From Ruegeria intermedia (GTDB lineage Bacteria > Pseudomonadota > Alphaproteobacteria > Rhodobacterales > Rhodobacteraceae): 64,000 nt of DNA. Positions within the stretch are counted from its first letter, which is position 1, and each line of letters begins with the position of its first letter. Made by a program: the position numbers and the translations under genes. The stretch spans positions 1-64,000 of the forward strand of contig NZ_FQVK01000019.1 of assembly GCF_900129345.1 (NCBI RefSeq), given 5' to 3'. The notes beneath the pieces were generated by a model. The model saw only the letters and a program-made list of their open reading frames with translations, ran no database searches and had not been told where the DNA came from. Positions 40,830 through 64,000 of this stretch are shown here, piece by piece.

Positions 40830-40838
40830 CTCGCCACC

Positions 40839-41831: not shown

Positions 41832-41835
41832 GACA

Positions 41836-44896: not shown

Positions 44897-45149
44897 CTTC
44901 CTTCAATGGCTTCATCCCTTCCGCTTGAAGGAAGTGGGGCCGCAAGCCATTGGCAGAATGAGGATAAATCTCTTCTTTCAATATTTCAGTTACTTCATGG
45001 GGTATGTGTCTGGCTTCCATCCCCACCCACGCGCGCGAGGGTCTCTGCGTGAAATATTGAAAGAAGCCCCGCGCGCCGGATTTCCGTTGCGGGACGGAGG
45101 CTTGGGCGCGAACTTCCTTCAAATGAAGGATTGGGGCCTTTGAAGGAAG
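44897..45149. repeat. Three inverted repeats with shared arms (candidate phage replication origin or control region)
   Basis: Within 250 non-coding bases there are three perfect inverted repeats. The first is CTTCCTTCAA/TTGAAGGAAG (44897-44906, 44925-44934). The second is a 17-bp pair built on CTTCTTTCAATATTTCA (44972-44988, 45050-45066). The third is CTTCCTTCAAA/TTTGAAGGAAG (45113-45123, 45139-45149). All arms share CTTCYTTCAA, alternate in orientation, and flank an A/T-rich patch. They lie between the resolvase and primase genes of the replication module. An origin with initiator sites, or a multi-operator control region, would explain them. Confidence 0.7.
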
Positions 45150-45163
45150 CATCGTCCCGGCCC

Positions 45164-47449: not shown

Positions 47450-47835
47450 CAGAAGGGCACCTCCGGGATCATGCCGTCGAGCCGCGCGCGGTCCTTCGCC
47501 GCCAGGTCACGCAAGGCATCGCAGTAGCCGGTGACGATCACCTCGACGAAGGTGTCCCACTCGTGCTCGGTCAGCTGGGCGAGATCGGTCCGGCCGAGGC
47601 TGTCGAGATAGGCGCCGCCGGCCTTGCCGCCCTCGACCATGGCCGCCGTCTCATTGGGGGTCGGATCGATCATGCCCGACCTCCGGTGGCAGATGTCCTG
47701 GCAAACCCGGCTGCAGAGGTCTCGGCGGCTCGTGTCGCGCCGCGGGTCGGAGACGCGGAAGCGCGCGTCGAACCAGCCCCAGCCGCGGGGTTCTCGGTGG
47801 CAGACGGCGCAGAGCCCGGCACGGCTGTAAGGCAT
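47449..47835 (-). CDS. DUF6511 zinc-finger-like prophage protein
   Basis: A 128-residue DUF6511 protein. The N-terminus holds a Cys cluster (CAVCHREPRGWGWFDARF near 9-26, then LCSRVCQDIC near 40-50) likely to bind zinc, and the second half starts MIDPTPNETAAMVEGG and contains LTEHEWDTFVEVIVTGYCDA. I chose the ATG at 47835 to include the Cys cluster, which gives a 166-bp out-of-frame overlap with the helicase gene. It may be a small DNA-binding partner of the replication proteins. Confidence 0.7.
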   Translation of the reverse strand: MPYSRAGLCAVCHREPRGWGWFDARFRVSDPRRDTSRRDLCSRVCQDICHRRSGMIDPTPNETAAMVEGGKAGGAYLDSLGRTDLAQLTEHEWDTFVEVIVTGYCDALRDLAAKDRARLDGMIPEVPF

Positions 47836-49409: not shown

Positions 49410-50347
49410 GCGGCGGCCTCCTCTTGGCGGGCTTCGTTGGTCCAGACCGAGCCGTCGCGCATGCGGTAGGAGACGAAGTCCTCGCCTGCGTCGGTCACCT
49501 CGCCGGGGACGAGATCGGGGATGAACAGGTGCCGGGGGCAGGCTCGGCGCTGGTCGGCAGGGTCGAGCAACCGGTCGTGGCGCGCGCAGTGCCAGCCGCC
49601 TTCGATGGGCGTGGAATGCAGGCAGGACCGACAGGTGACAGCCGCGGCGTCCTCGCCGTGGCAGAGCCCGTGGTGGTCGCAGAACCGGCACTCGAACCAG
49701 GCGGGATCCGCGCTGATCCGCTCGGGCGGGTGCTGGGCGAAGATGATCCGCCGCGCCTTTTCCATCAGGCGCTCGCCCATCTCGGGGTCGGCCGGGACGC
49801 GCTCGATGTGCAGCGCGTCGGTGTCCTTGCAGACCGCGACGTACAGCGCCCGCGTGATGCCGGTCAGGTGCATGTACACCTGCATCTGCGCGGCGTGCTG
49901 GGGCTTGGCGAGCGCGACGCCCTTGGCGATCAGCTCGGCGAAGCTCTTCGCCGAATGCGTCTTGAACTCGACGACGTGCCAGGTCTTCGGCGCCTCGAGC
50001 AGACCGAGGGCGACGGCGTCGAGCGAGCCGCCGAAATGCCCGCCATGGGCCTCGACGCGGAACTGCCGCCCGGTCTCGGGATCGACCTCCAGCACCGTCG
50101 CGCCGGTGGCGCGCAGGTCGCGGACGAGCCGGGCCTCCTCCAGCTGGCCGGTCTCGAACAGCCGCAGGATGCGGCCGGTGTGCCGCGCGGGCGTCGCCCA
50201 GCGGAAGTCATACCAGAGCGCACGGGCACAGGACTTGCCGATCAGCGAGGCGCCAAGATGGTCGCGGAAGCCATCGCCCTGCCGGGCCTCGTAGGAGGCG
50301 TAGATCGCGGAGAGGGTCGGCGTCGGGGGTTCGGGGAGCTCGGCCAT
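49403..50347 (-). CDS. PD-(D/E)XK nuclease (Cas4/RecB-like exonuclease)
   Basis: A 314-residue nuclease. The PD-(D/E)XK core can be seen as GGSLDAVALG near 105-115 and VVEFKTHSAK near 125-135 with the catalytic Asp, Glu and Lys, followed by the QMQVYMHLTG helix. Near 215-260 two Cys groups (CRFCDHHGLCHGE, CRSCLHS) may bind a metal or Fe-S cluster, as in Cas4-like and AddB-like enzymes. It probably trims DNA ends for recombination by the phage annealing system. The ATG at 50347 lies 7 bases after GGAGG. Confidence 0.85.
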   Translation of the reverse strand: MAELPEPPTPTLSAIYASYEARQGDGFRDHLGASLIGKSCARALWYDFRWATPARHTGRILRLFETGQLEEARLVRDLRATGATVLEVDPETGRQFRVEAHGGHFGGSLDAVALGLLEAPKTWHVVEFKTHSAKSFAELIAKGVALAKPQHAAQMQVYMHLTGITRALYVAVCKDTDALHIERVPADPEMGERLMEKARRIIFAQHPPERISADPAWFECRFCDHHGLCHGEDAAAVTCRSCLHSTPIEGGWHCARHDRLLDPADQRRACPRHLFIPDLVPGEVTDAGEDFVSYRMRDGSVWTNEARQEEAAAC

Positions 50348-50712
50348 CAGCATGCCTCCTCCCGCTCGAGCCGCGCCCGCGCCTCAGCCAGCACCGCAGC
50401 CCAGGCGGCGACGTCATGGCGCTCGCGCAAGACGGCGATGATCATGTCCTTGAGCCGTTCGCGCCGGCGGCGGCCTCCCTGACGGGCGACGATCTCTGCG
50501 CGCTCGCGATTGAGGTGGCGCAACGCAGTGCGCGCGCGGTGAAACCAGTCGGGGTCGATCGGCTTCGCCGTCCGCTGCCGCGTCAGATCGGCGGTCGCGA
50601 TCTGCGTGCGGATCTTCGCAATGGCGTCCTCGATCTCGATCAGGCGCCGGGTGTCGTCGGGCAAGCCGGGTGCGTTCACGGCCGCGCAGGCCGCGTCGGT
50701 GGTATTGGTCAT
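50347..50712 (-). CDS. Coiled-coil prophage protein of unknown function
   Basis: A 121-residue, mostly helical and highly charged protein (RLIEIEDAIAKIRTQIATADL near 24-44; Arg/Glu-rich stretch 70-118) with coiled-coil character. No domain is recognised. It overlaps the nuclease gene as TGATG and lies in the recombination operon, so it may be a partner of the nuclease or the DUF669 protein. Confidence 0.6.
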   Translation of the reverse strand: MTNTTDAACAAVNAPGLPDDTRRLIEIEDAIAKIRTQIATADLTRQRTAKPIDPDWFHRARTALRHLNRERAEIVARQGGRRRRERLKDMIIAVLRERHDVAAWAAVLAEARARLEREEAC

Positions 50713-50778
50713 GGTCTGTCTCTCGGGTCTGCCGATGTCCGGGCCGCCGCAGGTTTCAGCCCGCGGCGGCCGAGGGCG

Positions 50779-51285
50779 TCAGCTCTTGCGGTTCCAGGGC
50801 GCAGTGGCCGGGCGGGCGGGCGCCGACTGAGCGGGCGCGCTGGCCAACTGCGTCGCGGCGGGCTTGGGCGGGGTCGCCTGCGCCGGGGCCTCCGGCACCA
50901 GGTAGCGGATCGTGTTGCGCTCGCCGTAGCCGTCCTTCGGGGGCTTCACGCCGACCTGGATCGTCATCGGGATCAGGTGCAATTCCTCGCTGTCGTTGAC
51001 CTGCAACTTGCCCGTGGCGTGGCAGATCGCCGACAGCGTGCGCTGCGCGATCTCGACCGTGGTCGGGTGGGCGTTCACCAGGTTCAGCTGGTCGAAGACC
51101 TTGCGCCCCTGCTGCGGCCCCTCGAGGATGTCGAGCATCAGCCAGAGATACTTCCCCATCCCGTTCTTGGTGACGCGCATCTCGCTCTCGACGATCTGGG
51201 CGCGGTACTTGCCCGCAGGCAGGATCTCGTAAGCGGTGGTGGGCTCGATGCCGGCGGCGTCAAAGGCGGTGTCGAAACGTGCCAT
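50779..51285 (-). CDS. DUF669 protein (phage ssDNA-binding-like)
   Basis: A 168-residue DUF669 protein. The family pattern AYEILPAGKYRAQIVESEMR near 18-37, GMGKYLWLMLDILEGPQQGR and VFDQLNLVN is clear; the last 40 residues are a Pro/Ala-rich tail with a conserved-looking end (APWNRKS). DUF669 proteins accompany Sak4-type recombinases and are thought to bind single-stranded DNA. The adjacent Sak4-like gene supports this. Confidence 0.85.
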   Translation of the reverse strand: MARFDTAFDAAGIEPTTAYEILPAGKYRAQIVESEMRVTKNGMGKYLWLMLDILEGPQQGRKVFDQLNLVNAHPTTVEIAQRTLSAICHATGKLQVNDSEELHLIPMTIQVGVKPPKDGYGERNTIRYLVPEAPAQATPPKPAATQLASAPAQSAPARPATAPWNRKS

Positions 51286-51307
51286 CGTGCTGTCCTTTCA
51301 GTCGTAA

Positions 51308-52054
51308 TCAGGCGGATTGGGGCATGGCGGCCAGGAACTCGGACCACTCGAGCGGGAGGGTTTCCGGAAGGCCGTAGCGGTTCTTCGCGAGGAAGGCGGG
51401 GCGCTCCTCGGTGTGCATGACGCGCGCACCGGACCCGAGCGCCCGGGTCACCTTCTTGTTGAAGCCGACGTCGGACTTGCTGACCGAGATCCGGTAGTTG
51501 GCGAACAGCACCACATCGGAGTGCTCCTGAAGCAGCGCGGACGCGCGGGCCTGCAGCTTGATCACGTACCGGTCGTAGGGTTCGTGCTCGGGGCTGTCGA
51601 AGCGCTTGATGTCGGTGTGGGCGATCTGGATGACCGCCATTCCTTTCTGGTCGCGGAGCGCGTTCAGCCTGTCGATGTATTCGCGCCAGATGGTCAGCGC
51701 CTCGGCATAGCCCTTGCCGAAACCGGGGCTTTCGATCGACTGCCAGCCGTTGCGCCGGCAGGCCTCGGCCCAGATCAGCGGCTCCAGCCAGTCCACGCTG
51801 TCGACCACCACCGTGGAATAGGGATGGTCCTCGTCAAGCAGGGCGTCGAGCGCCTCGGCGACCTCCGCGTAGCTCGTCGCCAGCGGGAAATGCGGCACCT
51901 GGAGCTTGCCGAGACCGTCCTCGGTGAGGACGAACACCGGCGCGTCGGCGGACGCGGCGAAGGTGGATTTGCCGATGCCGGCGACGCCGTGGATCAGCAC
52001 GCGCGGCGGCCGCAGTGACGTCGAGGTTTGCAGGGATGCGAGCGAGATGGCCAT
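51308..52054 (-). CDS. Sak4-like RecA-fold ATPase (phage recombinase)
   Basis: A 248-residue P-loop ATPase of the AAA_24/Sak4 group. Walker A HGVAGIGKST is near 22-31, Walker B STVVVDSVDWL near 80-90, and the conserved MAVIQIAHTDIKRFDSP near 140 is typical of these short RecA-like single-strand annealing proteins. With the DUF669 protein and the PD-(D/E)XK nuclease it would carry out phage recombination. It overlaps the upstream gene by one base. Confidence 0.85.
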   Translation of the reverse strand: MAISLASLQTSTSLRPPRVLIHGVAGIGKSTFAASADAPVFVLTEDGLGKLQVPHFPLATSYAEVAEALDALLDEDHPYSTVVVDSVDWLEPLIWAEACRRNGWQSIESPGFGKGYAEALTIWREYIDRLNALRDQKGMAVIQIAHTDIKRFDSPEHEPYDRYVIKLQARASALLQEHSDVVLFANYRISVSKSDVGFNKKVTRALGSGARVMHTEERPAFLAKNRYGLPETLPLEWSEFLAAMPQSA

Positions 52055-52539
52055 CAGCGCGCCTCCTCGCCGAGCAGCAGCCGGAACTTCGGCTTGGCCG
52101 TCCGAACCGTGCGCGCGGGCTCAAACTCCTGGCGGATGTCCGTGGGCCAGGCGGTGTACTTCCGCTCGGGGACGCTGAGCGCGATGTCCACGTACTCGGC
52201 GGGATCGGCGCCATCCGCCCGGATGCGCTCGACCAGACCGGCGAGCAACGCCTGATCCCAATCAACGCGCTTCGGCAGCTCGGCGACCACGGTGACCGGA
52301 CCATCCTGCAGCCGGACGGTGCCGGTGTCCTTGCCCTCCACGCGGCGGGCGTCCTGCGCTTGGTCGCCGTACTTCAGCGCGATGGCGCCATCGAGCCAGT
52401 CGCAGAGGGTCTTCGCAGCGCGCAGCCGCTCGTCGGCGTCCTGCTTCAGGAGCGCCAGCTGGTCGCCCGGCAGAGCGGCGATCTCGCCGACCGGCATGGT
52501 GGGCAGATCGTCGAGGGTGATGTGGTTGGGGATCGTCAT
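52054..52539 (-). CDS. Prophage protein of unknown function in recombination operon
   Basis: A 161-residue protein starting MTIPNHITLDDLPTMPVGEIA. A helical N-terminal half (LLKQDADERLRAAKTLCDWLDG) is followed by a beta-rich part (GTVRLQDGPVTVVAELPKRVDWD). No named domain is recognised. It lies between the HTH gene and the Sak4-like gene and overlaps the latter, so a role in recombination or its control is likely. Confidence 0.65.
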   Translation of the reverse strand: MTIPNHITLDDLPTMPVGEIAALPGDQLALLKQDADERLRAAKTLCDWLDGAIALKYGDQAQDARRVEGKDTGTVRLQDGPVTVVAELPKRVDWDQALLAGLVERIRADGADPAEYVDIALSVPERKYTAWPTDIRQEFEPARTVRTAKPKFRLLLGEEAR

Positions 52540-52549
52540 GGCCGCCCCC

Positions 52550-52759
52550 TCACGCCAGCTTCACTGCGGGCTTGTCGGCCGTGCTCGAGCAGTGCCGGTT
52601 GGCCTCGTAGGCCTCGACATCCTCGAGCCGGTACACGACCCGGCCGCCGATCTTGATGAAGGCGGGGCCCTCACCGGTCCAACGCCAGCGCTCCAAAGTG
52701 CGCGGGCTGATTTTCCATCGAGCCGCCAGCTCGACCTGGTTGAGATGTGTGACTGACAT
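52550..52759 (-). CDS. Small winged-helix DNA-binding protein (AlpA/excisionase-like)
   Basis: A 69-residue helix-turn-helix protein of the HTH_17 type: LNQVELAARWKISPRTLERWR is the DNA-binding helix pair, and FIKIGGRVVYRLEDVEAYE is the wing and third helix. Proteins like this act as excisionases or early regulators. It is the first gene of the leftward phage operon. A longer in-frame start upstream was rejected as it lacks the family N-terminus. Confidence 0.88.
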   Translation of the reverse strand: MSVTHLNQVELAARWKISPRTLERWRWTGEGPAFIKIGGRVVYRLEDVEAYEANRHCSSTADKPAVKLA

Positions 52760-52882
52760 CGTCGTCTCCTTCGCGATTGGCCGAATGCCTGCGAAGGACG
52801 ATGGGGGAGCGCCTAGGAGGGCAGCGGGAGGAGCCAAGGAGGAGAGACGGGAGGAATGCAAATCAAGGTGCCCGAAAACGAA

Positions 52883-52908
52883 AAAGGCCGCCCCGAAGGA
52901 CGGCCTTT
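52883..52908 (-). terminator. Intrinsic terminator of the unknown two-gene cluster
   Basis: On the minus strand an 8-bp stem AAAGGCCG / CGGCCTTT with a 10-base loop is followed by TTTTCGTTTTC. It lies 18 bp after the stop of the 314-residue gene, so it ends the XRE-ImmA cluster transcript and insulates the phage operon downstream. Confidence 0.8.
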
Positions 52909-52926
52909 CGCGTCACCCATTTGCGG

Positions 52927-53871
52927 TCAGCCTTCGATCCAGCAACTCGCGCCGCTTTCGAAGATGACCCGCTTCCAAGCGGGGTGTCCCTTGAAGAGCT
53001 CGGACAGTCTCCGAACGGTTCGACCGCAAGCGGCCGCCTCTAGAACTGCATCCGTCGAGAGCCGGTGTTCCCCCGCGATGAAGGCCTCGGCCATCATAAG
53101 CACTGCAGCCTTCTGCTTCGTGCCTTTGAACTCAAAGCGTTCACCGTGGACGATCAGGATCGCTCCGTCACCGGAGACCCAAACCGGCCCCTGATCAGAA
53201 GGACCCGTCAGCAGCCGCGCCGAAAGGATTCCGGGGTTCGCGGCGATCCCGTCTTCATGATCGACCACATCTTCAAGCGGCACGATCTCGTGGCCTTTCA
53301 GGGTCGAGCGGCAAGTCCGCTTGGCCGGATCAAGGGATATAATTAGCCGCAAGCCTTCGGACGGACGGCGCGCGGCGAGCTGGCGGAACTGGTCGAAGGC
53401 CCCTGGAACGCTCAAGCCGCGTACCACCCAGATCCCGACGCGCGCTGTACGGTTCGGTAGCCGCGCAGCTCCGAAATCCAACACCACGCCATCGAGATAC
53501 GGCACCGGGTCCTTGCCGAGTGAGCAATCGAGCCGGGCGACCACTCGCCGAGCTGCTGCCGCCATGTCCAGCGCATAGACTTGGCGGCGGGCGCTCGCCC
53601 GTTCGTCGTGCCAGACTGCGTTGCCGAGATGACCATGATGGCCAGTGATCGGGTGGGCGATGACTGACGTCGGGGTGTCGTCCAAGTCGTCATCGGCAAC
53701 GACGGACATCAAGCTGCCCCGCTGCACGATCAGTCCGGCGTCCATCAGCGTCTTGCCGGCGCCGCGCATGTGCGCCAGCGCCATGGCCGAAACCCGCGCG
53801 TCGCGGGTTCCGGCGATCGAAGAGAGCAGTCTGCGGGCGGCGGGATCAATCCTCGAAGAGCTGCAGGTCAT
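52927..53871 (-). CDS. Unknown protein, partner of the upstream 395-residue protein
   Basis: A 314-residue soluble protein with no recognised domain. It has a helical N-terminus (ARRLLSSIAGTRDARVSAMA), a middle part with alternating strands (YLDGVVLDFGAARLPNRTAR; RLIISLDPAKRTC), and a C-terminal region ending in a helix-rich segment and CWIEG. No signal peptide, membrane helix or obvious catalytic motif is visible. It overlaps the preceding gene by 26 bp, so the two proteins are probably made together and may interact. The cluster (XRE, ImmA, and these two) sits at the edge of the prophage and could be a defence, toxin or lysogeny module. Confidence 0.6.
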   Translation of the reverse strand: MTCSSSRIDPAARRLLSSIAGTRDARVSAMALAHMRGAGKTLMDAGLIVQRGSLMSVVADDDLDDTPTSVIAHPITGHHGHLGNAVWHDERASARRQVYALDMAAAARRVVARLDCSLGKDPVPYLDGVVLDFGAARLPNRTARVGIWVVRGLSVPGAFDQFRQLAARRPSEGLRLIISLDPAKRTCRSTLKGHEIVPLEDVVDHEDGIAANPGILSARLLTGPSDQGPVWVSGDGAILIVHGERFEFKGTKQKAAVLMMAEAFIAGEHRLSTDAVLEAAACGRTVRRLSELFKGHPAWKRVIFESGASCWIEG

Positions 53872-55033
53872 CGACCAGGGTCCCCCAGCGCCGCAGGTAC
53901 TTCTCGCCGATCATCTGCTCGGTCGCAGTGCGATCCTTCAGATCGCAACCATGCGGCCAGGTGATCGTCAGGGTCAGCGTGCGCCGCCTGTCGCCTCCCG
54001 GCCGGCGGGCGAGCTTCACGGCGATCTTGGCCCGCGTGACCACATACCCCTCGCTCAGGGGCGTGCGATCCCCGAACCTTTCCTCCGCCTTCGTCCAGAT
54101 CGTCTCGTCGGCGCGCGCGGGCTTCTCCAGCGTCACCCTGAAATCGCTGTCGTCGATCGGCATCAGGCGCAGCTCGCGCACCTCGACGCCCTCGATCCCG
54201 TCTTCCGGATCAACCGGGAAATCGTAGGGCGCCAGCAGCACGGACAGGTCGTAGCACCGCAGCGGCAGGCGGTTCTCCTTGAACTCGATGCCGAGGATGT
54301 GCGTGACCGTCGCCCTCACGATCTCGTTCCGCGTCGCCTTGTCGTTGGCGATCACCTCGATGCCGCCGGTCGCGGGCTCATAGGTAACGGCGGCCTCGAA
54401 CACGGGACGATAGGCCTGCCGGACAAGCAACCCCTTGTCGTCGAAGCGGAGCAGATCGTCGGGCCGTCCCTCTCGGTAGATCGTCACCTGCACTAGGTCG
54501 CATTCGTCGCCCTCATGGGTCGTCCTCACCCGGTCGAAGATGTCGACATGGGCATGGGCAGCGCCCGAGAACTCCTTGATCGCGGAAACGAAGGCGTGGC
54601 GGGCCGACGCGTCGCGCTGCACGACGCAACCGGGGTCGGTCATGTACCCCGCCCACATCCGACCGCGCCGGCGGTCCTCCGTAAACCGGACTTCCTCGGC
54701 ATGACGAAAACGGTCCTGCGCGTTGAGGAACATCCAGAGCGACCGCGCGTGCGGGTTCGCGAGCCCGTCGAGGAGGGCGGGATCCTCGGCCACGCTGTAG
54801 ATCGCGGCCTGCCCCGGCTCGTCGGACAGGGCATGGACGCGCTCGGCGTCGTTCGAGATCCGGTCGCGCTGGACGCGGGACATCTTCTCGATGGCCCCGA
54901 GAAGCGGCCCGGACAGATCGGCGTCCGATGCGGGCCAGTCGAACTCGGTGGGCAGGCCGATCTCCGGCCGGTCGAAGTATTCGCGCAGCGCCTCGCCGGG
55001 CGTCTTGCGAAGGAAGGCGGACAGTGCAGTCAC
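53846..55033 (-). CDS. Unknown protein downstream of ImmA-like peptidase
   Basis: A 395-residue soluble protein. I recognise no named family. The first 150 residues are helical (REYFDRPEIGLPTEFDWP; LWMFLNAQDRFRHAEEV), followed by alternating strands through 150-395 (CDLVQVTIYREGRPDDLLRF; TLTLTITWPHGC). A role as effector or sensor is possible. It follows the ImmA gene after 107 bp that contain a palindrome and a 13-mer repeated at the XRE promoter, so it may have its own promoter controlled by the same regulator. Confidence 0.6.
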   Translation of the reverse strand: MTALSAFLRKTPGEALREYFDRPEIGLPTEFDWPASDADLSGPLLGAIEKMSRVQRDRISNDAERVHALSDEPGQAAIYSVAEDPALLDGLANPHARSLWMFLNAQDRFRHAEEVRFTEDRRRGRMWAGYMTDPGCVVQRDASARHAFVSAIKEFSGAAHAHVDIFDRVRTTHEGDECDLVQVTIYREGRPDDLLRFDDKGLLVRQAYRPVFEAAVTYEPATGGIEVIANDKATRNEIVRATVTHILGIEFKENRLPLRCYDLSVLLAPYDFPVDPEDGIEGVEVRELRLMPIDDSDFRVTLEKPARADETIWTKAEERFGDRTPLSEGYVVTRAKIAVKLARRPGGDRRRTLTLTITWPHGCDLKDRTATEQMIGEKYLRRWGTLVDDLQLFED

Positions 55034-55065: not shown

Positions 55066-55140
55066 GCTGATCTGCTAATCAGCGTATATCGCGCCTAAAG
55101 GGAGTCAATCGAAAAAATACGCACTTCCGCGGATTCGCGA
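55066..55140 (-). promoter_or_regulatory. Palindrome and repeated 13-mer upstream of the unknown pair
   Basis: A perfect inverted repeat GCTGAT-N6-ATCAGC lies at 55066-55083, and CGCGGATTCGCGA at 55128-55140, which matches 12 of 13 bases of a site at the XRE promoter (56241-56253). A GTCAATC element occurs upstream of both 13-mers in the same orientation. This looks like a second site for the cluster's regulator and suggests an internal promoter for the two unknown genes. Confidence 0.5.
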
Positions 55141-55863
55141 TCAGCGCCCGAAGAGCGAGGGCTGCCCGTGCGTCGAAGTGATCAGGTTCAGCTTCAACAG
55201 TCTGATGCGGGCGGCCTCTTCGGAAACCGCGAACCGCTCCATGACCATCTGGATCAGCCGCACGGCATGTTCCGTCGAAACATGGATATCGCCATGCAGC
55301 TCGCGCGGTCTGCAATAGTCGGAAACGAGGCGACGGACCGGCGTGGCCGGCATCAGCAGTGCGCCGCTGATATAACCGGCTTGCCATTCCATCCAGTCGG
55401 ACTGCGGGGCGTCCAGGATGTTGTCGCGCTTGGAGATCGCCTTGTTGGCGTTCACGCCGCGCTCGAGCAGGTCCCCGTTGGCGAACTTCTGCGCCCAGAG
55501 AGGCCCGTGGAACTTCACGTGCCCGAACTCATGGGTGAGCGTGGTCCGGAAGCGATTCTCGCGCCGATCGTCGCCGGCGATTCTTTCCGAGATGGAGACC
55601 TTGGGCCCCCGGTCGGGAAAGAACTCCGTCACCCCTTCGACATCGGCGCCATACGCTGACAAGTCGGCGTAAGGGTCGAGGTCCGCATCGTGCATCTCGA
55701 TCAGCACGGTCAGGTCGTCGGTCGCGACGGGATAGTCGACCTTTCCGTGGCGCTTCATCAAAAGCTCACGGATCAGCCGCTCGCATTCATCGTCGAGATC
55801 CCGCTCGCGGTAGAAGGGTCGCTCGGCAAAGCGGCCCGTGTTGTCACGGATCATCTTCACCAT
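55141..55863 (-). CDS. ImmA/IrrE-type metallopeptidase
   Basis: A 240-residue ImmA/IrrE-family protein. The zinc site is HEFGH near residue 110 (TLTHEFGHVKFHG), with a downstream helical part that includes the third ligand region (QAGYISGALLMPATPVRRLV). These peptidases often cleave or relieve the partner XRE repressor, as in mobile-element and toxin-antitoxin switches. The ATG at 55863 follows AGGAG; a TTG two codons earlier is less likely. It follows the XRE gene by 10 bp and precedes two unknown genes. Confidence 0.88.
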   Translation of the reverse strand: MVKMIRDNTGRFAERPFYRERDLDDECERLIRELLMKRHGKVDYPVATDDLTVLIEMHDADLDPYADLSAYGADVEGVTEFFPDRGPKVSISERIAGDDRRENRFRTTLTHEFGHVKFHGPLWAQKFANGDLLERGVNANKAISKRDNILDAPQSDWMEWQAGYISGALLMPATPVRRLVSDYCRPRELHGDIHVSTEHAVRLIQMVMERFAVSEEAARIRLLKLNLITSTHGQPSLFGR

Positions 55864-55873
55864 GCGCAACTCC

Positions 55874-56200
55874 TTACTCTTTCAACGTCTTCCTGAAATT
55901 GGCGAAGGCCTCGACGACCTTGTCCGGGGTGGACGCATCCGGCCGCAGATCATCCGGAAGCCGGCCTGCAAGTGCGTACAGGTAGTCCTCCGGAATGTTT
56001 AGGATGCCGGAGAACTGGCGGATCAAGTGCCCCGAGCTGGGGCTGCGTCGGTCGTGCTCGATGTCGTTGAGGTACTGCGGGGATATCGACCCGCCGCCCT
56101 CTTCCTTCATCACGCGCGCTGCGAGCTCCTTTTGGCTGAGACCGAGTGCCTTGCGGGCCTTCGAAATCGCCTGGCCGAAGGTCACACCGTCCGCGGACAT
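55874..56200 (-). CDS. XRE-family helix-turn-helix regulator
   Basis: A 108-residue regulator with a Cro/CI-type HTH (FGQAISKARKALGLSQKELA, then GGSISPQYLNDIEHDRRSP) followed by a helical C-terminus. It probably represses its own promoter and its neighbours, with inactivation by the adjacent ImmA-type peptidase. It diverges from the YhaO-YhaN-helicase operon over a 124-bp gap that has a palindrome, so it could also control that operon; that is inference. Confidence 0.9.
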   Translation of the reverse strand: MSADGVTFGQAISKARKALGLSQKELAARVMKEEGGGSISPQYLNDIEHDRRSPSSGHLIRQFSGILNIPEDYLYALAGRLPDDLRPDASTPDKVVEAFANFRKTLKE

Positions 56201-56228: not shown

Positions 56229-56253
56229 AATCCGCTTGTTCGCGGATTTGCGA
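56229..56253. promoter_or_regulatory. Operator-like palindrome between XRE gene and nuclease operon
   Basis: A perfect 7-bp inverted repeat AATCCGC-TTGTTC-GCGGATT (56229-56248) runs into the 13-mer CGCGGATTTGCGA (56241-56253), which recurs with one change at 55128-55140. It is centred in the divergent intergenic region, about 75 bp from the nuclease start and 30 bp from the XRE start, an ideal place for autoregulation. Confidence 0.55.
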
Positions 56254-56324: not shown

Positions 56325-57551
56325 ATGATCAGGATCCTTCACACGGCCGACGTTCACCTCGACTCCCCGTTGAGGTCCCTAGCGCTGCGCGACCCCGAGC
56401 TGAGGGATCGGGTCCGGACATCGAGCCGAACCGCGCTAACCAGGATCGTCGACACCGCGCTTGCCGAGGAAGTAGCCGCCCTGCTGATTGCAGGCGATCT
56501 GTTCGACGGGGCAGAGCGTAGCGCGCGGACTGCCGCCTTCCTGACGCTGCAACTGGAGCGCCTGCGTGAACGCGGGATCCGCGCATTTTATATCAAGGGC
56601 AACCACGACGCCGAGAACCCTCTCACCGGCGAGTTGACCTTGCCTGATAACGTTCATGTCTTTGACGGGCGCGGCGGCAAGGTGCAGCTCGCGGAGAACG
56701 TCTGGATCCACGGCGTTAGCTTCGCCAACCGTCATGCCCCGGAAAGTCTGCTGCCAAGGTTCCCGGCGCCGGTCGCAGGCGCGGTCAACATCGCGATGCT
56801 GCATACCTCCCTCGCGGGCGCAGAGGGCCACGATCCCTACGCACCCTGCACGGTCGGTGAACTGACTGCTGCTGGCTTCGATTACTGGGCGCTCGGGCAT
56901 GTTCACCGCCGGCAAGTCCACTCCAAGGCGCCATGGATCGTGATGCCCGGAACGCCACAGGGACGCGATATGGGCGAGCCCGGTCCGAAATCCGCCACGC
57001 TGTTGACCATCGACAAGGCAATCGAGATCGAAGAAGTGCCGACCTCGGCCGTCGAGTTCCTGCACCTCCGGATCGACGCCACGGATACCGACAGCGACGA
57101 CGCGCTGCGCGATATGGTAAAGCGGACCCTGCGAGACACGGCGCGAAACCTGGTGTCGGAAAGCGCCGTGGTTCGCTTGGAGCTTACCGGTCGCACGCGC
57201 CGTCGTTGGCAGATCCTGCGTGATCAGGACGTCTGGAAAGAGACCGCGGCACAATATGCGCGGGAGACGGGCACGCTTTGGCTGGACAAGGTCGTGTTTG
57301 ACATGACCGACACTGCGGAGCGCGGGCACACCGCCACGGACGAGTTGGCCGGGATCATGAAGACCATCCGCGAGGAACCCGGGTTTTCCAAGACCTGCCG
57401 TGCTGAAATCGAAGGCATTCTGCAGGAGTTGGCGCCGCAGCGGCGTGCCGAGCTGTTGCCTGATGAACCGGCAATGGAGCAACTTGCGCGGCGTCTCGCA
57501 GAAGCCGGCGCGGAGCGGATCCTTGCGCGAATGAAGGGAGCCACGCCCTGA
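56325..57551 (+). CDS. YhaO/Mre11-like metallophosphoesterase (DNA repair nuclease)
   Basis: A 408-residue calcineurin-like nuclease of the SbcD/YhaO type. Metal-binding motifs are in order: DVHLDSP near 9-15, GDLFDGAE near 58-65, GNHDAEN near 93-99, MLHTS near 165 and GHVHRR near 193. The C-terminal 200 residues are the cap and Rad50-binding-like helical part. With the following ATPase it should form a Mre11-Rad50-like complex that opens and cuts DNA ends. The ATG follows GGGAG at 7 bases; the stop overlaps the next start as TGATG. The genes may serve repair or attack invading DNA. Confidence 0.92.
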   Translation: MIRILHTADVHLDSPLRSLALRDPELRDRVRTSSRTALTRIVDTALAEEVAALLIAGDLFDGAERSARTAAFLTLQLERLRERGIRAFYIKGNHDAENPLTGELTLPDNVHVFDGRGGKVQLAENVWIHGVSFANRHAPESLLPRFPAPVAGAVNIAMLHTSLAGAEGHDPYAPCTVGELTAAGFDYWALGHVHRRQVHSKAPWIVMPGTPQGRDMGEPGPKSATLLTIDKAIEIEEVPTSAVEFLHLRIDATDTDSDDALRDMVKRTLRDTARNLVSESAVVRLELTGRTRRRWQILRDQDVWKETAAQYARETGTLWLDKVVFDMTDTAERGHTATDELAGIMKTIREEPGFSKTCRAEIEGILQELAPQRRAELLPDEPAMEQLARRLAEAGAERILARMKGATP

Positions 57552-60500
57552 TGCGGATCGAGCGGCTCTCTCTCGACTTTTTTGGTCACTTCACGGGCAA
57601 GGTCCTCGATTTCGGAAAAGCCGGTCAGGCTTCGGATTTCCATGTGATCTACGGCTCGAACGAAGCCGGCAAAACCACAACAATGGAAGCCTACCTGCGT
57701 CTTCTCTACGGCTTTCCCCATCGGGAGCCCTACGGGTTCCAGCACCAGCGACAGAATCTTCGGGTCTCCGGTCTGCTCGACATCGGAGGCGAAACCCGTA
57801 TGTTCACGCGACTGCCTTCCCGCAGCGGCAACCTCAGGGGAGAGGCCGACGCGGCCCTGCCCGAGACCGCGATCGCCTCGCACCTCGGCGGACTTTCGCT
57901 CGACGACTACCGCAGTCTGCTTTGCCTCGACGACGACACCATCGAAAAAGGCGGTGAGGACATTGCCAGCGCGCGAGGCGATATCGGCCGATTACTATTC
58001 TCCGCGGCGGCTGGTGTCGCGGACCTCAATGCCGTTCTCGAACAGGCGCGGGCCGAGGCAAGCGACCTCTACAAGAAGCGCGCCAGCACCACTCGGGTCG
58101 CGGAACTGAAGCGCGACCTAAGTGAGGTGGAGACCAACATCCGTAACCTCGATGTCAGCGCCCACGCATGGCGAAAGCTGAAGGATGCGCTTCAGGCCGC
58201 CAGGGATGAAGAGGGGCAAGCTCGGCGCGCAAGGGACGAGCTTCGCGCCGAACAGGCCCGCATCGCTGCGCTGCGCCGGGCTCTGCCCAATCTGGGCGAG
58301 CTTGACCGCGTTGCGGACGAGATCGCCGACTGCGCCGACTATCCCGAGCGGATCGACATCAATCCCGAAGATCTGGTCACGATGAGGACCGACCGGGGGC
58401 AGGCGGATGCCGAGTTGCGGCGGCTGCTGGACGAACTTGACGGGGCTGAAAAGGCGCGCGTGGCGCTGGTGATCGACGCAGACCGCCTCGCCCTAGCCGA
58501 GCAGCTGGACGATCTCGACGAACTGCGCAGCCGGATGCAAACGGCGGTCTTGGACCTTCCCAGACGCGAACGGGCCCATGAGGAGGCTCTTTCGGACATG
58601 GCACGCATCGCCCGGGATCTGGGGGCACCCGAAGATTGCGATGTCACCGCACTTGTCGCGTCTCCGGGAGAAATTGCCATACTTGAAGACCTGCGTGACA
58701 AGATGCGAGACGCCGCCGCGGCTTGGGAGACCGAGCAACGCGAGATCGCAGGCTTGCAGACCCGAATCGAGCAGGCCCGGAAGGCACATCAATCATTGCA
58801 GGAAGCTCCGCCGCAGATGGGTTTGGTGGATCTGCTCAAGCGGTTCGACGCCGATGCCCTGGCACCAGAAGTCGCCACGGCGAAACAAGCCATCGGGTCC
58901 GCCGACACGGCGCTGGAGCAGGCGCTCGACTCGCTTTCCATCGGTGCATGCACCTTCAGCGCCCTCCCGGTCTGCCCGGTCGATCCATCGACAGCAGCAG
59001 ACACTGCCCAACGCCACGCCGATCTGGCGGAGAAGCTCGGACGCTTTGACGACAGGTTGGAGCGTTTGGACGAGGACATCGCCGCCGTGAAGGCGAAAAC
59101 CACCCGGCTCTCGGAAGACGCCAGGATTGCGAGCGACGAAGAGGAACAGGCGGCGCGGGCCCGACGTGACGCCCTTTGGCAAGCACATCGTGAAACCCTG
59201 ACATCAGAGAGCGCGGACAGCTTTGCACCGTCGATGAAAACGGTGGACGACATCAACGCCGCGCGTCTCGCCCACGCGAGCGAGCTCGGCGAACTGCGAA
59301 AGCTCCTGCAGGATCTGGCGGACGCGGAAGCACGCGCGACGACGGCTCGGGAACAGCACGATGGGCTCGCCGAACTGGCACGAGAGCTCGAGAGCCAAGT
59401 CCACGGTCTATGTTCGCAGATCGGACTTCCGGCGCTTTCCCCTTCAGCTTTTTCGGACTGGGTTGCGCTACACAGCAAAGCCATAGCCGCTGAGCGGCAA
59501 CGGAACAGGCTTGTCGAACACCACCGGGAGACGCTGGATCGGGCAGAGCAGCTTCGTCAGGCGCTCACGCCCCTCGTCGCTTTGGAGACCCCGACATTGG
59601 ATGCAGCGTTGCTTGCCGCGCGGCGTCTTGCCGAAAACGAACGGCGCCACCAGGAAGAGGTGCGGGCGGCCTCAGACAAGACCACCGCCCTCGAGGAGGA
59701 TCTCGAACGCCGGCAAGGCGAACAGGGAGTCCTTGAGGACACCGCCGAGAGGACTGCTGCAGCCTGGAGCGCAAAAATACACGAACTTTTCGGCGAGATG
59801 CTTTCACCCGACCAACTTGCCGCCGGTCTCGGGCAGCTGCGCGAACTACGCGAACACAACGAGAAGCGGCGACAAGCCGAACGTCAGGTTAACACGATGA
59901 AGGACGATCAACGCCGGTTCACGGAAGCCTCTGGCGCCCTTGGTGCACGTTTCGGCATCGGGGAGAGCGACCCTCTCGAGACATTCCGGCGCCTGCGGGA
60001 GCTCGCAGAGCAAGCGCAGGCTGACAAGTCACAGCACGAGAAGCTCGGCACTAAGCTTGAAGATGGTGAAAAACGGCGAACTGAACTCGAGGCGAAGCTC
60101 GAAGACATCGACAGGAAAGTCGCGGAACTTGGTGCGGTGTTCCCGGAGACGGTGGACACCAGCACAATCGACGCCCTTCGGGTCGCTGTGGGCAAAGGCC
60201 TTGACGTCATCGCAAAAAGAGAACGGGTCGCCGAGCTCGAACGGCAGATCCTCGACGACCTATCTCTGAGGAAATTGGAGGAAGCCCGCCAGCTACTTGC
60301 CGATGAAACCGCTACAACGCTCGAGGCGAAAGCGAAGTCCCTAGATACCGATCTCAACCTCGCAGAAGAGCGGATGTCCACCGCCACCGTGGCCCGAGCC
60401 AATGCCGAGCGGGACCTCGGCAGTGTTACCGGCGGCGCAGAGATCGCCGACCTGGTCGAACGGCGCGCCACGTTGCAGATTCAGATCGAAGAGGCGGTTC

Positions 60501-60976
60501 TTGACTATCTGGAGTTGGACTTCGGTCTACGCCTCGCCGAAGAGGCCATCCGCCGCTATCGCGATAGGCATCGGAGCGACATGATGGCATCCACAGAGCG
60601 CGCCTTTGCGGAGCTCACGAATGGCGCCTACCAGAAGCTGCTGACGCAACCGGACGGTGCGGCTGAAGTCTTGTTGGCGGTCGATGCGAACGGCACCCCC
60701 AAGCAGATCGGTGACATGTCGAAGGGGACGAGGTTCCAACTCTATCTGGCGCTGCGCGCCGCGGCCTATGAACAAATGGTAGCGCAGGGCGTTCAGCTCC
60801 CCTTCTTCTGCGACGATGTCTTTGAGACCTTCGATGAGGATCGAACGCGTGCCGCCTGCCGTCTCATGGAGCGGATCGGCCGGAGCGGTCAAGCGATCTA
60901 TCTGACTCATCACCGGCATGTTGTCGAAATTGCGAGGGATGTGTGTGATGCGCAGCCAAAAATTCATCAACTTTAA
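57551..60976 (+). CDS. YhaN/Rad50-like SMC-type ATPase
   Basis: A 1141-residue protein of the YhaN (AAA_27) type. The N-terminal ATPase half starts MRIERLSLDFFGHFTG, with Walker A GSNEAGKTTT near 35. Long coiled coils span about 170-1030. The C-terminal half has the signature MSKGTRFQLYLALRAAA near 1055, Walker B LPFFCDDVFETFDEDR near 1085 and a switch His (LTHHRH) near 1118. It pairs with the upstream nuclease as Rad50 does with Mre11. I do not see the CxxC zinc hook of true Rad50 in mid-protein. Gene coupling with the nuclease is tight. Confidence 0.92.
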   Translation: MRIERLSLDFFGHFTGKVLDFGKAGQASDFHVIYGSNEAGKTTTMEAYLRLLYGFPHREPYGFQHQRQNLRVSGLLDIGGETRMFTRLPSRSGNLRGEADAALPETAIASHLGGLSLDDYRSLLCLDDDTIEKGGEDIASARGDIGRLLFSAAAGVADLNAVLEQARAEASDLYKKRASTTRVAELKRDLSEVETNIRNLDVSAHAWRKLKDALQAARDEEGQARRARDELRAEQARIAALRRALPNLGELDRVADEIADCADYPERIDINPEDLVTMRTDRGQADAELRRLLDELDGAEKARVALVIDADRLALAEQLDDLDELRSRMQTAVLDLPRRERAHEEALSDMARIARDLGAPEDCDVTALVASPGEIAILEDLRDKMRDAAAAWETEQREIAGLQTRIEQARKAHQSLQEAPPQMGLVDLLKRFDADALAPEVATAKQAIGSADTALEQALDSLSIGACTFSALPVCPVDPSTAADTAQRHADLAEKLGRFDDRLERLDEDIAAVKAKTTRLSEDARIASDEEEQAARARRDALWQAHRETLTSESADSFAPSMKTVDDINAARLAHASELGELRKLLQDLADAEARATTAREQHDGLAELARELESQVHGLCSQIGLPALSPSAFSDWVALHSKAIAAERQRNRLVEHHRETLDRAEQLRQALTPLVALETPTLDAALLAARRLAENERRHQEEVRAASDKTTALEEDLERRQGEQGVLEDTAERTAAAWSAKIHELFGEMLSPDQLAAGLGQLRELREHNEKRRQAERQVNTMKDDQRRFTEASGALGARFGIGESDPLETFRRLRELAEQAQADKSQHEKLGTKLEDGEKRRTELEAKLEDIDRKVAELGAVFPETVDTSTIDALRVAVGKGLDVIAKRERVAELERQILDDLSLRKLEEARQLLADETATTLEAKAKSLDTDLNLAEERMSTATVARANAERDLGSVTGGAEIADLVERRATLQIQIEEAVLDYLELDFGLRLAEEAIRRYRDRHRSDMMASTERAFAELTNGAYQKLLTQPDGAAEVLLAVDANGTPKQIGDMSKGTRFQLYLALRAAAYEQMVAQGVQLPFFCDDVFETFDEDRTRAACRLMERIGRSGQAIYLTHHRHVVEIARDVCDAQPKIHQL

Positions 60977-61072
60977 TCGTGGAAGCAATTTATTGCTCGC
61001 ACCAATTACACCACGACCTTGCAGCGCTCTTATCGTGCGGCAGGTCACAATTCGAGATAGGCGGACAGGGAG

Positions 61073-63790
61073 ATGAACATAAACAATAAGGAGTCAGTCC
61101 TTGCCGACATCGCGAGAGACTCGCTCACATGCATTGAAAAGGTGGCCGCTGACGCAGAGGCGGCGCGGACATCGCACCGGAGGAGCGATGCCAGTGCATT
61201 TGCAAGCATCAATACACTCAACAGTCCGCAGCAGGTGAGCCGTCTCGGGAAGGTCGCAGATGCTGAAATGGATGCCCTTGCTGCGCTGATCGAGCAGCCT
61301 GTCATCGCCCGCATACACTTCATCGACGAGAACGATGAAGAAGACACCATCTTCATCACTCGCGGCACTCCCCGTTCAATACCCGGCTTCAAGATTGCGA
61401 GCTATAGGGCGCCACTGGGTCGCATCGCATCCCTGGCAGCTGGCGATGAAGGCACATTTCGCTTCGGCAGCACCGAGCGAGACCTTCTGGTCGATAGCTC
61501 TGCGCGCCTCAAGCCACAACGCGAGCAAGGACAGTGGGACGCTAAGGACTCGGAGATCGACATACGGGGCCTCGGGCGGTTCACCGTTGGGTCGCTGCGT
61601 GAGCTACTGGAACCGAGCGCCGACATCGAAGTGGGCGACCTCGAGGCGCTTTGGGACGACGAAACTGACGCGAACATCGTAGAGGGCGTGCGCCGCGCGA
61701 TCCTCACGCAAATGGGCCTGCGTGATCAGCCGATCCTTGATCGGCACCAGGACGAGATCTTTCGGATGCCCATCAACAGTCGCTGCTTCCTCTCCGGACC
61801 ACCAGGAACAGGAAAAACCACAACACTCATCCGGCGCCTCGGCCAGAAGACGGATCGGCAGGCCCTTGAAGAGTCCGGGGAAGAGATGCGACTCATCCGA
61901 CAAGTGGAGGAAGAAACAGGCAGGCCGCATGAGAGCAGCTGGATTCTGTTCTCTCCAACCGAGCTGCTTCGGCAGTACGTAAAAGAAGCGTTCAACAAGG
62001 AAGGTTTGGCCGCAAGTGACGGGCACATCCGGACTTGGGACGAGTTTCGCCGTGAGCTGGCGCGCGAAGAGCTTGGCTTGCTTCGAACGAGCGCGGGAAC
62101 TGGTCCGTTCGTCGAACGACGTACGCAGGACTACCTCAAGCCAGAAGTGCTGGACGAGGCTCAATGGTACGATGAATTTCGTGAGTACGTCGACGCCTCA
62201 GTTGCGGACGAACTGCGCGCAGATGCAGATCTCTTGGCGAAGAGTGACGCACCGGATCTGAGCGTAATTGGGGATTTGTTGGGGGAAGCATTCAAGAGGC
62301 CTGGGCGTGATTTCTATGCGCATACGATGCGGAGCGTCGCTGGACTTATTCCCGAAATCCGGGAGGCAATTTCCTCGCGAACCGACGCAATCAACCGCAT
62401 TCTCACACGAGCGCGCAACGCTCTCACTCATGCCGATCGCAACTTTCCCGACCTCCTTCGCCAAGAAATCTCCCGGCAGCTCGCCGCAGATCCGCAAGAA
62501 GCGGACGAGGATGACGAACTCGAAGCCGCGCTGGAGGACGAAGATGAACAGGCCAGTGCGCCGCAAGCCGGTCGCCCGGTAAGCCGGCAGCAAGCCTTGG
62601 TGCGTTTTGAACGTGCCTTGAAATCTTTGGCAAAGGCCCGGCGGGCGCGACGTCGCGTCTCGGAGAAATCTCAAGATGGCTTGCTTCTCGAGTGGCTGGG
62701 TCCGGAACGCATCCCAGCCGATAACGAGATTTCTGAGCTTGGGAAGCTGTTAGTCGAACAGTCACGACTGAGAAGGTTCGAGCGCCTTGAACGGCTTTTC
62801 CTTCGTGGGCTCCCGACAAGATACAAGCGCTTCCGCAGCGAAATGGCGAAGGCAGAGCGCTGGTACGAGGCGACGCCCGCCAAGGCGTCGGATATCCACT
62901 GGCAAGAGCTCGACCTTGTGATCCTGGCAACGCTCCAGATCGCCAACGAGCTGTTGAGCAACTATCGGAGCCGAACCGGGCTGGAACTTCCAGCAGCAGG
63001 GCCACTCGCATCCATGCTATACATTCAAAGGGCACAGGTTCTCGTCGATGAGGCAACCGACTTTTCGCGGGTACAGCTCGCTTGCATGAACGAGCTCGCG
63101 CATCCATTGACCGGCTCTCTCTTTCTTTGTGGGGACATAAATCAACGACTGACTTCTTGGGGCCTCAAATCGAATGAAGCGCTGAACTGGATAGGCGAGA
63201 ATATCGAACGCAGATCTATTACAGTTTCATACCGCCAAAGCCGACGCCTTGTTGATCTTGCAAAGCAAATTGCCACCATCGGCGGCTCTCAGGCAGATGA
63301 CATTATCCTGCCCGACCGCCTCGATGCTGAGGGATTGCCCCCAGTGTGGCATGCAAGCCTCGGCGACAACTCTGCCGTCGCAGAATGGCTAACCAAGCGT
63401 ATTCACGAGATCGATCGAATGGTTCAGAAGGCCACGACGATTGCCGTTTTGGTGAATGAGGAAGAGCAGGTGGAACCGCTGGCTCTGGAACTCAACGATC
63501 GGCTGGAAGAGATCAACCTTTCTGCTGTCGCCTGTAAGGATGGAAAGGTTGTCGGCAACGACCGGGATGTACGAGTATTCAACATTCGGCACATCAAAGG
63601 CTTGGAGTTTGAAGCCGTCTTTTTTGTCGACCTCGATCAAACGGTCTCCAAGCATCCAGACCTATTCTCAAAGTACCTCTATGTCGGGGCAACCCGCGCT
63701 GCAACCTATCTGGGGGTGACATTCAAGGGCAATGTGCCAAGGCAGATTGCGCCTCTGTCGCATCACTTCAGTGAGGATTGGTCGATATGA
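61073..63790 (+). CDS. HelD-like SF1 (UvrD-type) helicase
   Basis: A 905-residue SF1 helicase. The first 100 residues are a coiled-coil arm and the segment PVIARIHFIDENDEEDT with ASYRAPLGRIASLAAGD following resembles the N-terminal part of HelD, the ATPase that frees stalled RNA polymerase. Walker A SGPPGTGKTT lies near 241, Walker B-like VLVDEATDF near 658, and helicase motifs IV-VI (YRQSRRLVDLA, HIKGLEFEAVFFVD, YVGATRA near 869) follow. An acidic linker (about 475-500) splits the helicase domain. It is 130-200 residues longer than typical HelD. It sits 96 bp after the YhaN-like gene and overlaps the next gene as ATGA. Composition is visibly more A/T-rich than the prophage. A plain UvrD/Rep assignment is less likely because of the N-terminus. 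Confidence 0.82.
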   Translation: MNINNKESVLADIARDSLTCIEKVAADAEAARTSHRRSDASAFASINTLNSPQQVSRLGKVADAEMDALAALIEQPVIARIHFIDENDEEDTIFITRGTPRSIPGFKIASYRAPLGRIASLAAGDEGTFRFGSTERDLLVDSSARLKPQREQGQWDAKDSEIDIRGLGRFTVGSLRELLEPSADIEVGDLEALWDDETDANIVEGVRRAILTQMGLRDQPILDRHQDEIFRMPINSRCFLSGPPGTGKTTTLIRRLGQKTDRQALEESGEEMRLIRQVEEETGRPHESSWILFSPTELLRQYVKEAFNKEGLAASDGHIRTWDEFRRELAREELGLLRTSAGTGPFVERRTQDYLKPEVLDEAQWYDEFREYVDASVADELRADADLLAKSDAPDLSVIGDLLGEAFKRPGRDFYAHTMRSVAGLIPEIREAISSRTDAINRILTRARNALTHADRNFPDLLRQEISRQLAADPQEADEDDELEAALEDEDEQASAPQAGRPVSRQQALVRFERALKSLAKARRARRRVSEKSQDGLLLEWLGPERIPADNEISELGKLLVEQSRLRRFERLERLFLRGLPTRYKRFRSEMAKAERWYEATPAKASDIHWQELDLVILATLQIANELLSNYRSRTGLELPAAGPLASMLYIQRAQVLVDEATDFSRVQLACMNELAHPLTGSLFLCGDINQRLTSWGLKSNEALNWIGENIERRSITVSYRQSRRLVDLAKQIATIGGSQADDIILPDRLDAEGLPPVWHASLGDNSAVAEWLTKRIHEIDRMVQKATTIAVLVNEEEQVEPLALELNDRLEEINLSAVACKDGKVVGNDRDVRVFNIRHIKGLEFEAVFFVDLDQTVSKHPDLFSKYLYVGATRAATYLGVTFKGNVPRQIAPLSHHFSEDWSI

Positions 63791-64000
63791 GCCACCCAAA
63801 TTCCATGGTCCAGTGGTGGGATACGACGCCGATCCAAGCATTACATGAGAAGGGACGTGACTTGCAGTTCGAATTGTTGTGGAGCTTCAAGACCAAGGAT
63901 TTCGAGGTTGTTTGTGAAGCGTACGAGCCTGGCTTCATCGATCCATGGGCACACGACAAGGTAGTGATCGACGCTGTCGATCGCGGCGATGCCATGCTCA
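63787..64000 (+). CDS. Fourth gene of the nuclease-ATPase-helicase operon, partial
   Basis: The first 71 codons of a protein that runs off the window, starting MSHPNSMVQWWDTTPIQALHEKG. The stretch has a helix, a Trp-rich opening (QWWDTTP) and LQFELLWSFKTKDFEVVCEAYEP. No family is recognised in the part visible. The ATGA overlap with the helicase gene shows it belongs to the same operon, so its identity matters for interpreting the system. Confidence 0.7.
   Translation, partial: MSHPNSMVQWWDTTPIQALHEKGRDLQFELLWSFKTKDFEVVCEAYEPGFIDPWAHDKVVIDAVDRGDAML

Follow-up and report, generated by a model that had tools for sequence, protein, structure and literature searches.

YhaO-YhaN and a HelD-fold helicase as probable defence cargo of a Ruegeria intermedia prophage, between its immunity switch and the tRNA-Met attachment site

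Rousset et al. 2022 (PMC9122126) described hotspots with exchangeable cargo in P2/P4 and in prophages of Vibrio and Bacillus; a text search of the accessible portion of that report for SbcC, Mre11 and UvrD was negative. In such prophage and satellite hotspots, conserved phage genes flank a short region of swapped cargo, close to the repressor or the integrase, and known anti-phage genes are part of that cargo. Here we describe an operon with a comparable placement in positions 1-64000 (hereafter the window) of contig NZ_FQVK01000019.1 (81,894 nt), part of the 3.86-Mb draft genome of Ruegeria intermedia. It encodes a nuclease of the Mre11/SbcD type (YhaO), a Rad50-like ATPase (YhaN) and a helicase with a predicted HelD fold (here called HelX). 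We consider the operon a probable defence module carried by the prophage. Its place is a variable cargo slot between an immunity switch and a tRNA-Met(CAT) attachment site. Compared with the described hotspots, the phage family is another one, the site is a tRNA-Met gene, the cargo is larger, and the slot, which contains the repressor's palindrome, is arranged divergently to the repressor. The prophage defence hotspot is a known kind of locus; what is new is its YhaO-YhaN-HelX occupant and a helicase common to several defence systems.

The closest described relatives of the first two gene products are SbcCD and YhaO-YhaN pairs of the Mre11-Rad50 family, within which YhaN-type proteins form a separate branch. 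The yhaO gene (56325..57551, forward strand) codes for a 408-residue metallophosphoesterase (PF00149, Metallophos, 1.4e-13) with the phosphoesterase motifs DxH at residue 9, GDxxD at 57, GNHD at 92 and GHxH at 191; its match to NCBIfam TIGR00619 sbcd (2.8e-16) is under the model cut-off. The yhaN gene (57551..60976, forward strand) overlaps yhaO by one base (TGATG) and codes for a 1141-residue coiled-coil ATPase (PF13514, AAA_27, 4.8e-61) with a P-loop at residue 35 and the signature SKG at 1057. Both proteins match PHROGs of SbcD/SbcC-like phage proteins (YhaN, SbcC-like, 6e-14). The nuclease and ATPase motifs and the overlapping gene order are shared with SbcCD, but a motif search of YhaN for the CxxC zinc hook was negative, and the pair is found in a prophage together with a helicase rather than on its own. 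A literature search for links between YhaO-YhaN and phage gave only work on oxidative stress. Lamassu also uses an SMC/Rad50-like ATPase, and YhaN has a weak match to LmuB (8.5e-5), but the nuclease partner here is of the Mre11 type, and PADLOC found no LmuA among the five window proteins scanned.

The helX gene (61073..63790, forward strand; 905 residues; UvrD_C_2, 5.4e-13) is separated from the end of yhaN by 96 bases and so does not overlap it. The protein has helicase motifs GPPGTGKT at residue 242, DEATD at 659, GDxNQ at 687, GLEFE at 843 and ATRA at 873. An AlphaFold model (predicted local distance difference test, pLDDT, 83.3) was built from a 62-sequence alignment comprising the window protein and 61 of the 72 loci used for the tree described below. 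It contains an N-terminal coiled coil, a beta domain and a superfamily 1A (SF1A) core with a long helical insert. In a Foldseek search of the PDB with this model the seven best matches were all HelD, over nearly the whole length and with the coiled coil included. VIA-align, which covered mainly model residues 159-904 and whose absent N-terminal matches were left uninterpreted, fitted UvrD to the HelX core equally well or better than HelD. At the level of the predicted fold, assignment to the HelD-like family holds. The sequence is far from HelD (14-16% identity), and the match to NCBIfam HelD_BACSU (9.4e-13) scores 46.9 bits against a curated cut-off of 419; a further difference is that relatives of HelX lie in defence loci and mobile elements. 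HelX might act as HelD does, displacing RNA polymerase. Its task would then be to shield prophage DNA during transcription or replication, not to attack DNA from outside. The near-whole-length fold match, coiled coil included, speaks for such a role, which we regard as very doubtful.

Two further defence systems have features close to those of the locus. Gabija, similar in its logic, combines a nuclease/ATPase with an SF1 helicase, the UvrD-like GajB, which is described as sensing DNA ends in the available part of one report (PMC10952713). The best PADLOC hits of HelX are GajB models, but these are partial, restricted mostly to motif stretches, and of E-value 4e-10 and weaker; no PADLOC helicase model was matched over the full length of HelX. 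GajA is an OLD-TOPRIM nuclease, whereas the nuclease here is of the Mre11 type and the genes 5' of helX are Mre11/Rad50-like; PADLOC found no GajA among the five window proteins scanned. The second system is BREX. In the part of a report on the pEFER BREX island that was accessible to us, brxU is located between brxC and pglX (PMC8565348), which is the place taken by HelX relatives in ten of the 80 loci described below (gene order brxC-HelX-pglX). BrxU is a type IV (GmrSD) nuclease with DUF262/DUF1524 domains, whereas HelX is a helicase, and a tblastn search of the whole contig with BrxC, PglX and PglZ found none at 1e-5.

The preliminary description of this DNA, made from sequence, had reported a TGATG-coupled yhaO, a yhaN, a HelD-like helicase gene and a further gene coupled by ATGA and leaving the window, next to an XRE-ImmA switch and a prophage, in an arrangement that matched no named system. 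Coordinates, families, motifs and the predicted fold bear out the first three genes, the fourth is an open reading frame (ORF) at 63787-64239, and Pfam and PHROGs identify the switch pair and the prophage. The operon is located at the prophage end, rather than beside the prophage as described. No named system with the YhaO-YhaN-HelX arrangement was found in the literature searched, outside which most subscription journals fell. The same searches gave nothing on a UvrD-type accessory helicase near PglX in BREX, or on a DUF4391-SNF2-helicase association, and apparently nothing on HelD in defence islands.

The order XRE-ImmA|YhaO-YhaN-HelX is complete in three genomes: that of the window, a Roseovarius metagenome-assembled genome (L060) and Alterinioella (L063). 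The XRE protein is 87% identical in L060 and 93% identical in L063. A fourth cassette, in Tabrizicola (L059), is on a contig that begins within yhaO. Among 295 genomes of the family, HelX had matches in seven (four full length) and YhaN in 46; the two co-occur in four genomes, in one cluster in all four (hypergeometric 0.013, a value inflated by near-copies). Of the conserved four-gene synteny envisaged at first, the three-gene order with XRE-ImmA recurs in other genomes and the fourth gene does not. YhaO-YhaN and HelX are separable modules, given the counts above and given viral contig L193, where no HelX follows YhaO-YhaN, and locus L065, which has HelX without YhaO-YhaN. In addition, a HelX remnant is found 5' of YhaO-YhaN in genome G167 (locus L027), and a partial HelX occupies the same position in L083. 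The end of the cassette or remnant is 105-170 bp from the 3' end of tRNA-Met in six of seven loci (window, L059, L060, L063, L065, L027); in L083 this distance is about 2.3 kb. L091 and, for YhaO, L077 are separate distant cases. On an Aminobacter plasmid (L012) YhaO-YhaN and a WYL gene are divergent from a row containing HelX, TM0106 and a PD-(D/E)XK gene, which makes this a second, distant instance of both modules within one island; it alone has YhaO-YhaN nearby among the eight of ten plasmid HelX records examined for context, a ninth being without annotation.

The fourth ORF (63787..64239, forward strand; 63787..64000 in the window) would code for 150 residues and overlaps the helX stop codon by ATGA. 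Support for a real gene comes from two sequence features only, this overlap and a base composition (codon-position GC of 0.62/0.40/0.58) that looks like coding in its frame. The same two features would favour a single four-gene defence system. Against it, the ORF was matched in one of the 295 genomes, and no relatives were found in plasmid records, in INPHARED phage records (threshold 0.1), in the PDB or in the 80 HelX loci. There was likewise no Pfam family or PHROG match, and a single-sequence structure model (pLDDT 36.7) was not usable. Other modules take its place in relatives. In L063 HelX is followed by McrB (EVE+AAA_5) and McrC, in L059 by two GmrSD_N proteins (Pfam) and in L060 by relatives of that pair with 89% and 77% identity. 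With a match in one genome of 295, and with a GmrSD-like pair or McrBC in its place in relatives, a four-gene system was rejected as highly unlikely. A HelX fragment on metagenome contig L006 is followed by ORFs of 601 and 785 residues, close in length to the GmrSD pair. The best-supported reading is that in the window genome the restriction partner is absent or has an orphan ORF in its place.

The operon is preceded by the switch of the phage, the XRE-ImmA pair. The XRE repressor gene (55874..56200, reverse strand; HTH_3, 1.3e-9; PADLOC capH, 5.4e-4) is divergent from yhaO. The second switch gene (55141..55869, reverse strand) codes for an ImmA-like metalloprotease (Peptidase_M78, PF06114, 4.8e-9; PADLOC capP, 9.1e-9) with the HExxH motif HEFGH at residue 113. 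Next to it is an early phage gene (53846-55033, reverse strand), the start of the early operon, which we used as a marker. As a query it retrieved 26 viral loci, nine of which end before the switch; ImmA or XRE-ImmA adjoins the marker in 14 of the 17 sufficiently long ones (absent in L184, L185 and L189). After exclusion of loci ending before the slot, 12 records show what lies beyond the switch (window, L060, L063, L065, L170, L172, L180, L184, L185, L189, L193 and L195; L170 and L195 are cut within the cargo, and L184 and L185 share one arrangement). YhaO-YhaN is found in five of them and HelX in four, with different genes elsewhere, five of the 12 having been retrieved with HelX or YhaN as the query. 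In L193 the genes after YhaO-YhaN match PD-T7-1 (1.1e-85), PD-T7-5 (2.8e-38) and Lit (3e-15) in PADLOC. L065 has HelX and an M78 protein, and L185 a serine recombinase and an M78 protein. The families PD-T7-1/PD-T7-5, Lit, GmrSD and McrBC act against phage.

Since modules are swapped beyond the switch in relatives, the slot exchanges modules, known defence families among them. The cargo is flanked by conserved phage elements (XRE-ImmA and the early gene on one side, the 3' end of tRNA-Met on the other), its turnover among related prophages is high, and some occupants (PD-T7-1/PD-T7-5, Lit, GmrSD_N, McrBC) are known anti-phage genes, as in a defence hotspot. In a defined slot where known anti-phage families and unknown genes interchange, unknown occupants become predictable as defence genes. 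Two occupants without Pfam or PADLOC match, L172:845-3598 (917 residues) and L170:3-1439 (478 residues, cut by the contig end), are candidates of this kind.

The divergent gap between the repressor gene and yhaO contains an operator-like palindrome, AATCCGCTTGTTCGCGGATT (AATCCGCn6GCGGATT; 56229..56248), and a copy with one mismatch (55116..55135) is found upstream of the early operon. These two sites with at most one mismatch compare with 0.04 expected in the window (no more than one in any of 100 Markov sequences). At three mismatches (6 against 5.7 expected) and in a half-site search (3 against 1.2) counts were at chance level. The gap palindrome, with no or one mismatch, is present in every one of the 12 records covering the sequence upstream of XRE, regardless of cargo (window, L060, L063, L170, L171, L172, L176, L180, L183, L190, L193 and L195); in L183 it is present though the XRE gene itself was not called. 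The early-operon site is weaker across relatives, with one or two mismatches where found and none found in L179 and L183. The pattern fits a repressor that would bind at, and govern, both the early genes and the cargo promoter. It points to cargo expression being coupled to the choice of lysogeny, and an operon switched off in the lysogen would explain it equally well.

The setting of the window copy also bears on whether YhaO-YhaN is an ordinary DNA-repair locus with HelX as a bystander and no phage link. Ordinary surroundings were seen for YhaO-YhaN in all five plasmid loci examined for context out of 133 records, the Aminobacter plasmid, seen through HelX, being excepted. They were also seen in 17 of 18 YhaN loci of family genomes, one of the 18 having tested defence-type genes within flanks that, at about 8 kb per side or less, were shorter than those used for HelX. 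HelX was unmatched in 42 of the YhaN genomes; the control set takes 18 of these, selected at roughly 40% identity and above, with two contig-broken genomes (G226 and G010) left out. The window copy, in contrast, is at a prophage end, is preceded by the repressor's palindrome and travels with HelX and XRE-ImmA, and YhaN is patchy in the family. That the set might be a core repair locus of the species, as the preliminary description allowed, does not hold for the window copy, which is the single YhaN match in its genome (2 of 15 first-look candidates scored) and is prophage cargo. We consider an ordinary repair role improbable here.

The genomic contexts of HelX relatives were examined in the best 80 of 189 candidates from a genome scan. 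A tested defence-type gene was found in the retrieved flanking DNA (at most 10 kb on either side) of 52 of the 80, a count biased upward because the reference proteins were taken from the surroundings of HelX itself and some belong to broad families of helicases and methyltransferases. The types comprise SNF2/DUF4391/type III-like (19 loci), BREX (16, with BREX identity checked by NCBIfam in three HelX loci only), GmrSD/DUF262 (7) and Dnd (5). DUF4391 is directly 5' of HelX in seven loci, and a type III-like methyltransferase is 3' of it in seven. With the same references 1 of the 18 other YhaN loci scored, against 52 of 80 for HelX, a contrast that the shorter control flanks weaken. Beside one HelX relative (70% identity), a 709-residue protein was seen in which GmrSD_N is fused to a Schlafen AlbA_2 domain (L061:7640-9769; PADLOC PDC-M55C, 7.7e-63).

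A tree was built for 72 of the 80 loci and the window from ORFs of 870-960 codons, with L083 left out. One clade (support 99), nested in an alphaproteobacterial group of eight, unites the YhaO-YhaN-linked HelX proteins of the window, L059, L060 and L063. In the other four members (L061, L062, L064 and L065) YhaO-YhaN was not seen in the available DNA, which for L062 is a 7.7-kb contig. The pairing of HelX with YhaO-YhaN therefore seems to be recent and to have arisen once. Dnd-linked HelX proteins are scattered on the tree and not clustered. A viral scan with the HelX alignment gave, among the matches listed, at least one further long relative (L139) and at least two weak partial ones.

The palindrome shared by the early and yhaO promoters keeps alive the main alternative to a defence module, namely that the phage uses the operon for its own DNA metabolism, with HelX as a replication or recombination helicase turned on with the early genes after XRE loss. 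The phage counterpart to which YhaO-YhaN would be likened is T4 gp47/gp46. Several observations, together with the bias and the short control flanks just mentioned, weigh against defence, and some of them favour this alternative directly. YhaO and YhaN match SbcD/SbcC-like phage proteins, an exact palindrome precedes their operon and a near-copy the early one, and the early region already has recombination genes, the Sak4-like protein and the Cas4-domain exonuclease next door. With an operator in its promoter gap the operon may be switched off in the lysogen and come on when the prophage is induced, a pattern more in keeping with a role in phage replication. Of the seven slot records found by the marker, the window's own phage alone carries YhaO-YhaN or HelX; the module is thus an infrequent occupant of the slot. 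HelX and YhaN were unmatched at 1e-10 in 50,697 INPHARED phage records (in which the marker gene was also unmatched, at 1e-5), 28 of the 80 HelX loci showed none of the tested defence-type genes, and the association rests on few lineages. On the other side, the genes are present in a minority of the slot records (one of the seven found by marker; five of 12 for YhaO-YhaN and four of 12 for HelX despite the query-selected records), relatives hold restriction or PD-T7-1/Lit-like genes in the slot, and the wider HelX family is often found in defence loci. We judge a role in phage metabolism unlikely and retain the defence module as the probable function.

SbcCD engages DNA ends, hairpins and branched replication intermediates. 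Given the protein families, a lysogen may use YhaO-YhaN and HelX against invading DNA as follows. YhaO-YhaN would engage DNA ends, hairpins or branched replication intermediates. HelX would translocate on the exposed single strand and clear bound proteins, perhaps RNA polymerase. It might feed or license a nuclease, as GajB reportedly does for GajA, and might do so in contact with YhaO-YhaN. In relatives, breaks in modified phage DNA would come from the type IV restriction partner, a GmrSD-like pair or McrBC. An ImmA-type metalloprotease that cleaves a repressor once activated by single-stranded DNA is described, with CapP-CapH as the defence example, in the portion of the source available to us (PMC10904395). 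That an XRE operator sits in the promoter gap suggests ImmA-mediated induction here too; DNA damage would lead to ImmA-mediated loss of XRE and raised operon expression, as reported for CapP-CapH.

A broader proposal can be put forward tentatively. HelX may be a general accessory motor of DNA-targeting immunity, from a family that BREX, SNF2/type III-like, Dnd and type IV restriction systems have repeatedly co-opted. In Rhodobacterales-type prophages it may have been recruited by YhaO-YhaN, as an undescribed defence module with an exchangeable restriction partner and with expression wired to the prophage repressor. The cross-system helicase is, in our opinion, the most interesting part of the finding: with one family across otherwise unrelated defence systems, its role (end sensing, protein removal or nuclease licensing) is testable in several hosts.

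The prophage body, delimited by PHROGs matches of a tested subset of genes, extends over 17737..55033 (reverse strand). The tested genes include those for a tail protein, tape measure, portal, terminase, a ParB-methyltransferase, primase, the Cas4-domain exonuclease and the Sak4-like annealing protein. The ParB-like domain and a DNA methyltransferase are joined in a single protein (41836-43242), and a second methyltransferase (40839-41831) comes after it. An Rfam scan and a tRNA scan of the window gave no match, and in a promoter and terminator scan signals were not above chance. Copy A of the attachment site, the 3' half of a tRNA-Met(CAT) gene, is at ~221..265 (reverse strand). Copy B, a second tRNA-Met 3' half, is at ~64410-64455 of the contig, and an intact tRNA-Met (81772-81848, anticodon CAT by ARAGORN), read as initiator type, is near the contig end. 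The two copies and the intact gene are arranged as in tandem integration of elements at tRNA-Met(CAT). Beside copy A is a tyrosine integrase (2042..3262, forward strand), which shares 36% identity, across 401 aligned positions, with the Pfam-confirmed integrase L002:4628-5920; another integrase adjoins the middle copy, B.

Between copy A and the first integrase is a gene for a DUF6880 protein (450-1889, 6e-198). From 3467 to 14368, between this integrase and the prophage, are genes for amino-acid transport and metabolism (ABC transporter, glutamine synthetase, aminotransferase, ornithine cyclodeaminase), adjoined by two transposases (15105-17541). Because these metabolism genes and transposases separate the integrase from the prophage, the left element is composite. 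To the right of the window, contig positions ~64410-81772 (L002 and L003) hold a second element of 17.4 kb, in tandem at tRNA-Met. It encodes an integrase, a primase-like protein (DUF7146/Toprim_3/DUF5906), a GpA-type terminase, HNH and AIPR proteins, and looks like a phage satellite or a reduced prophage.

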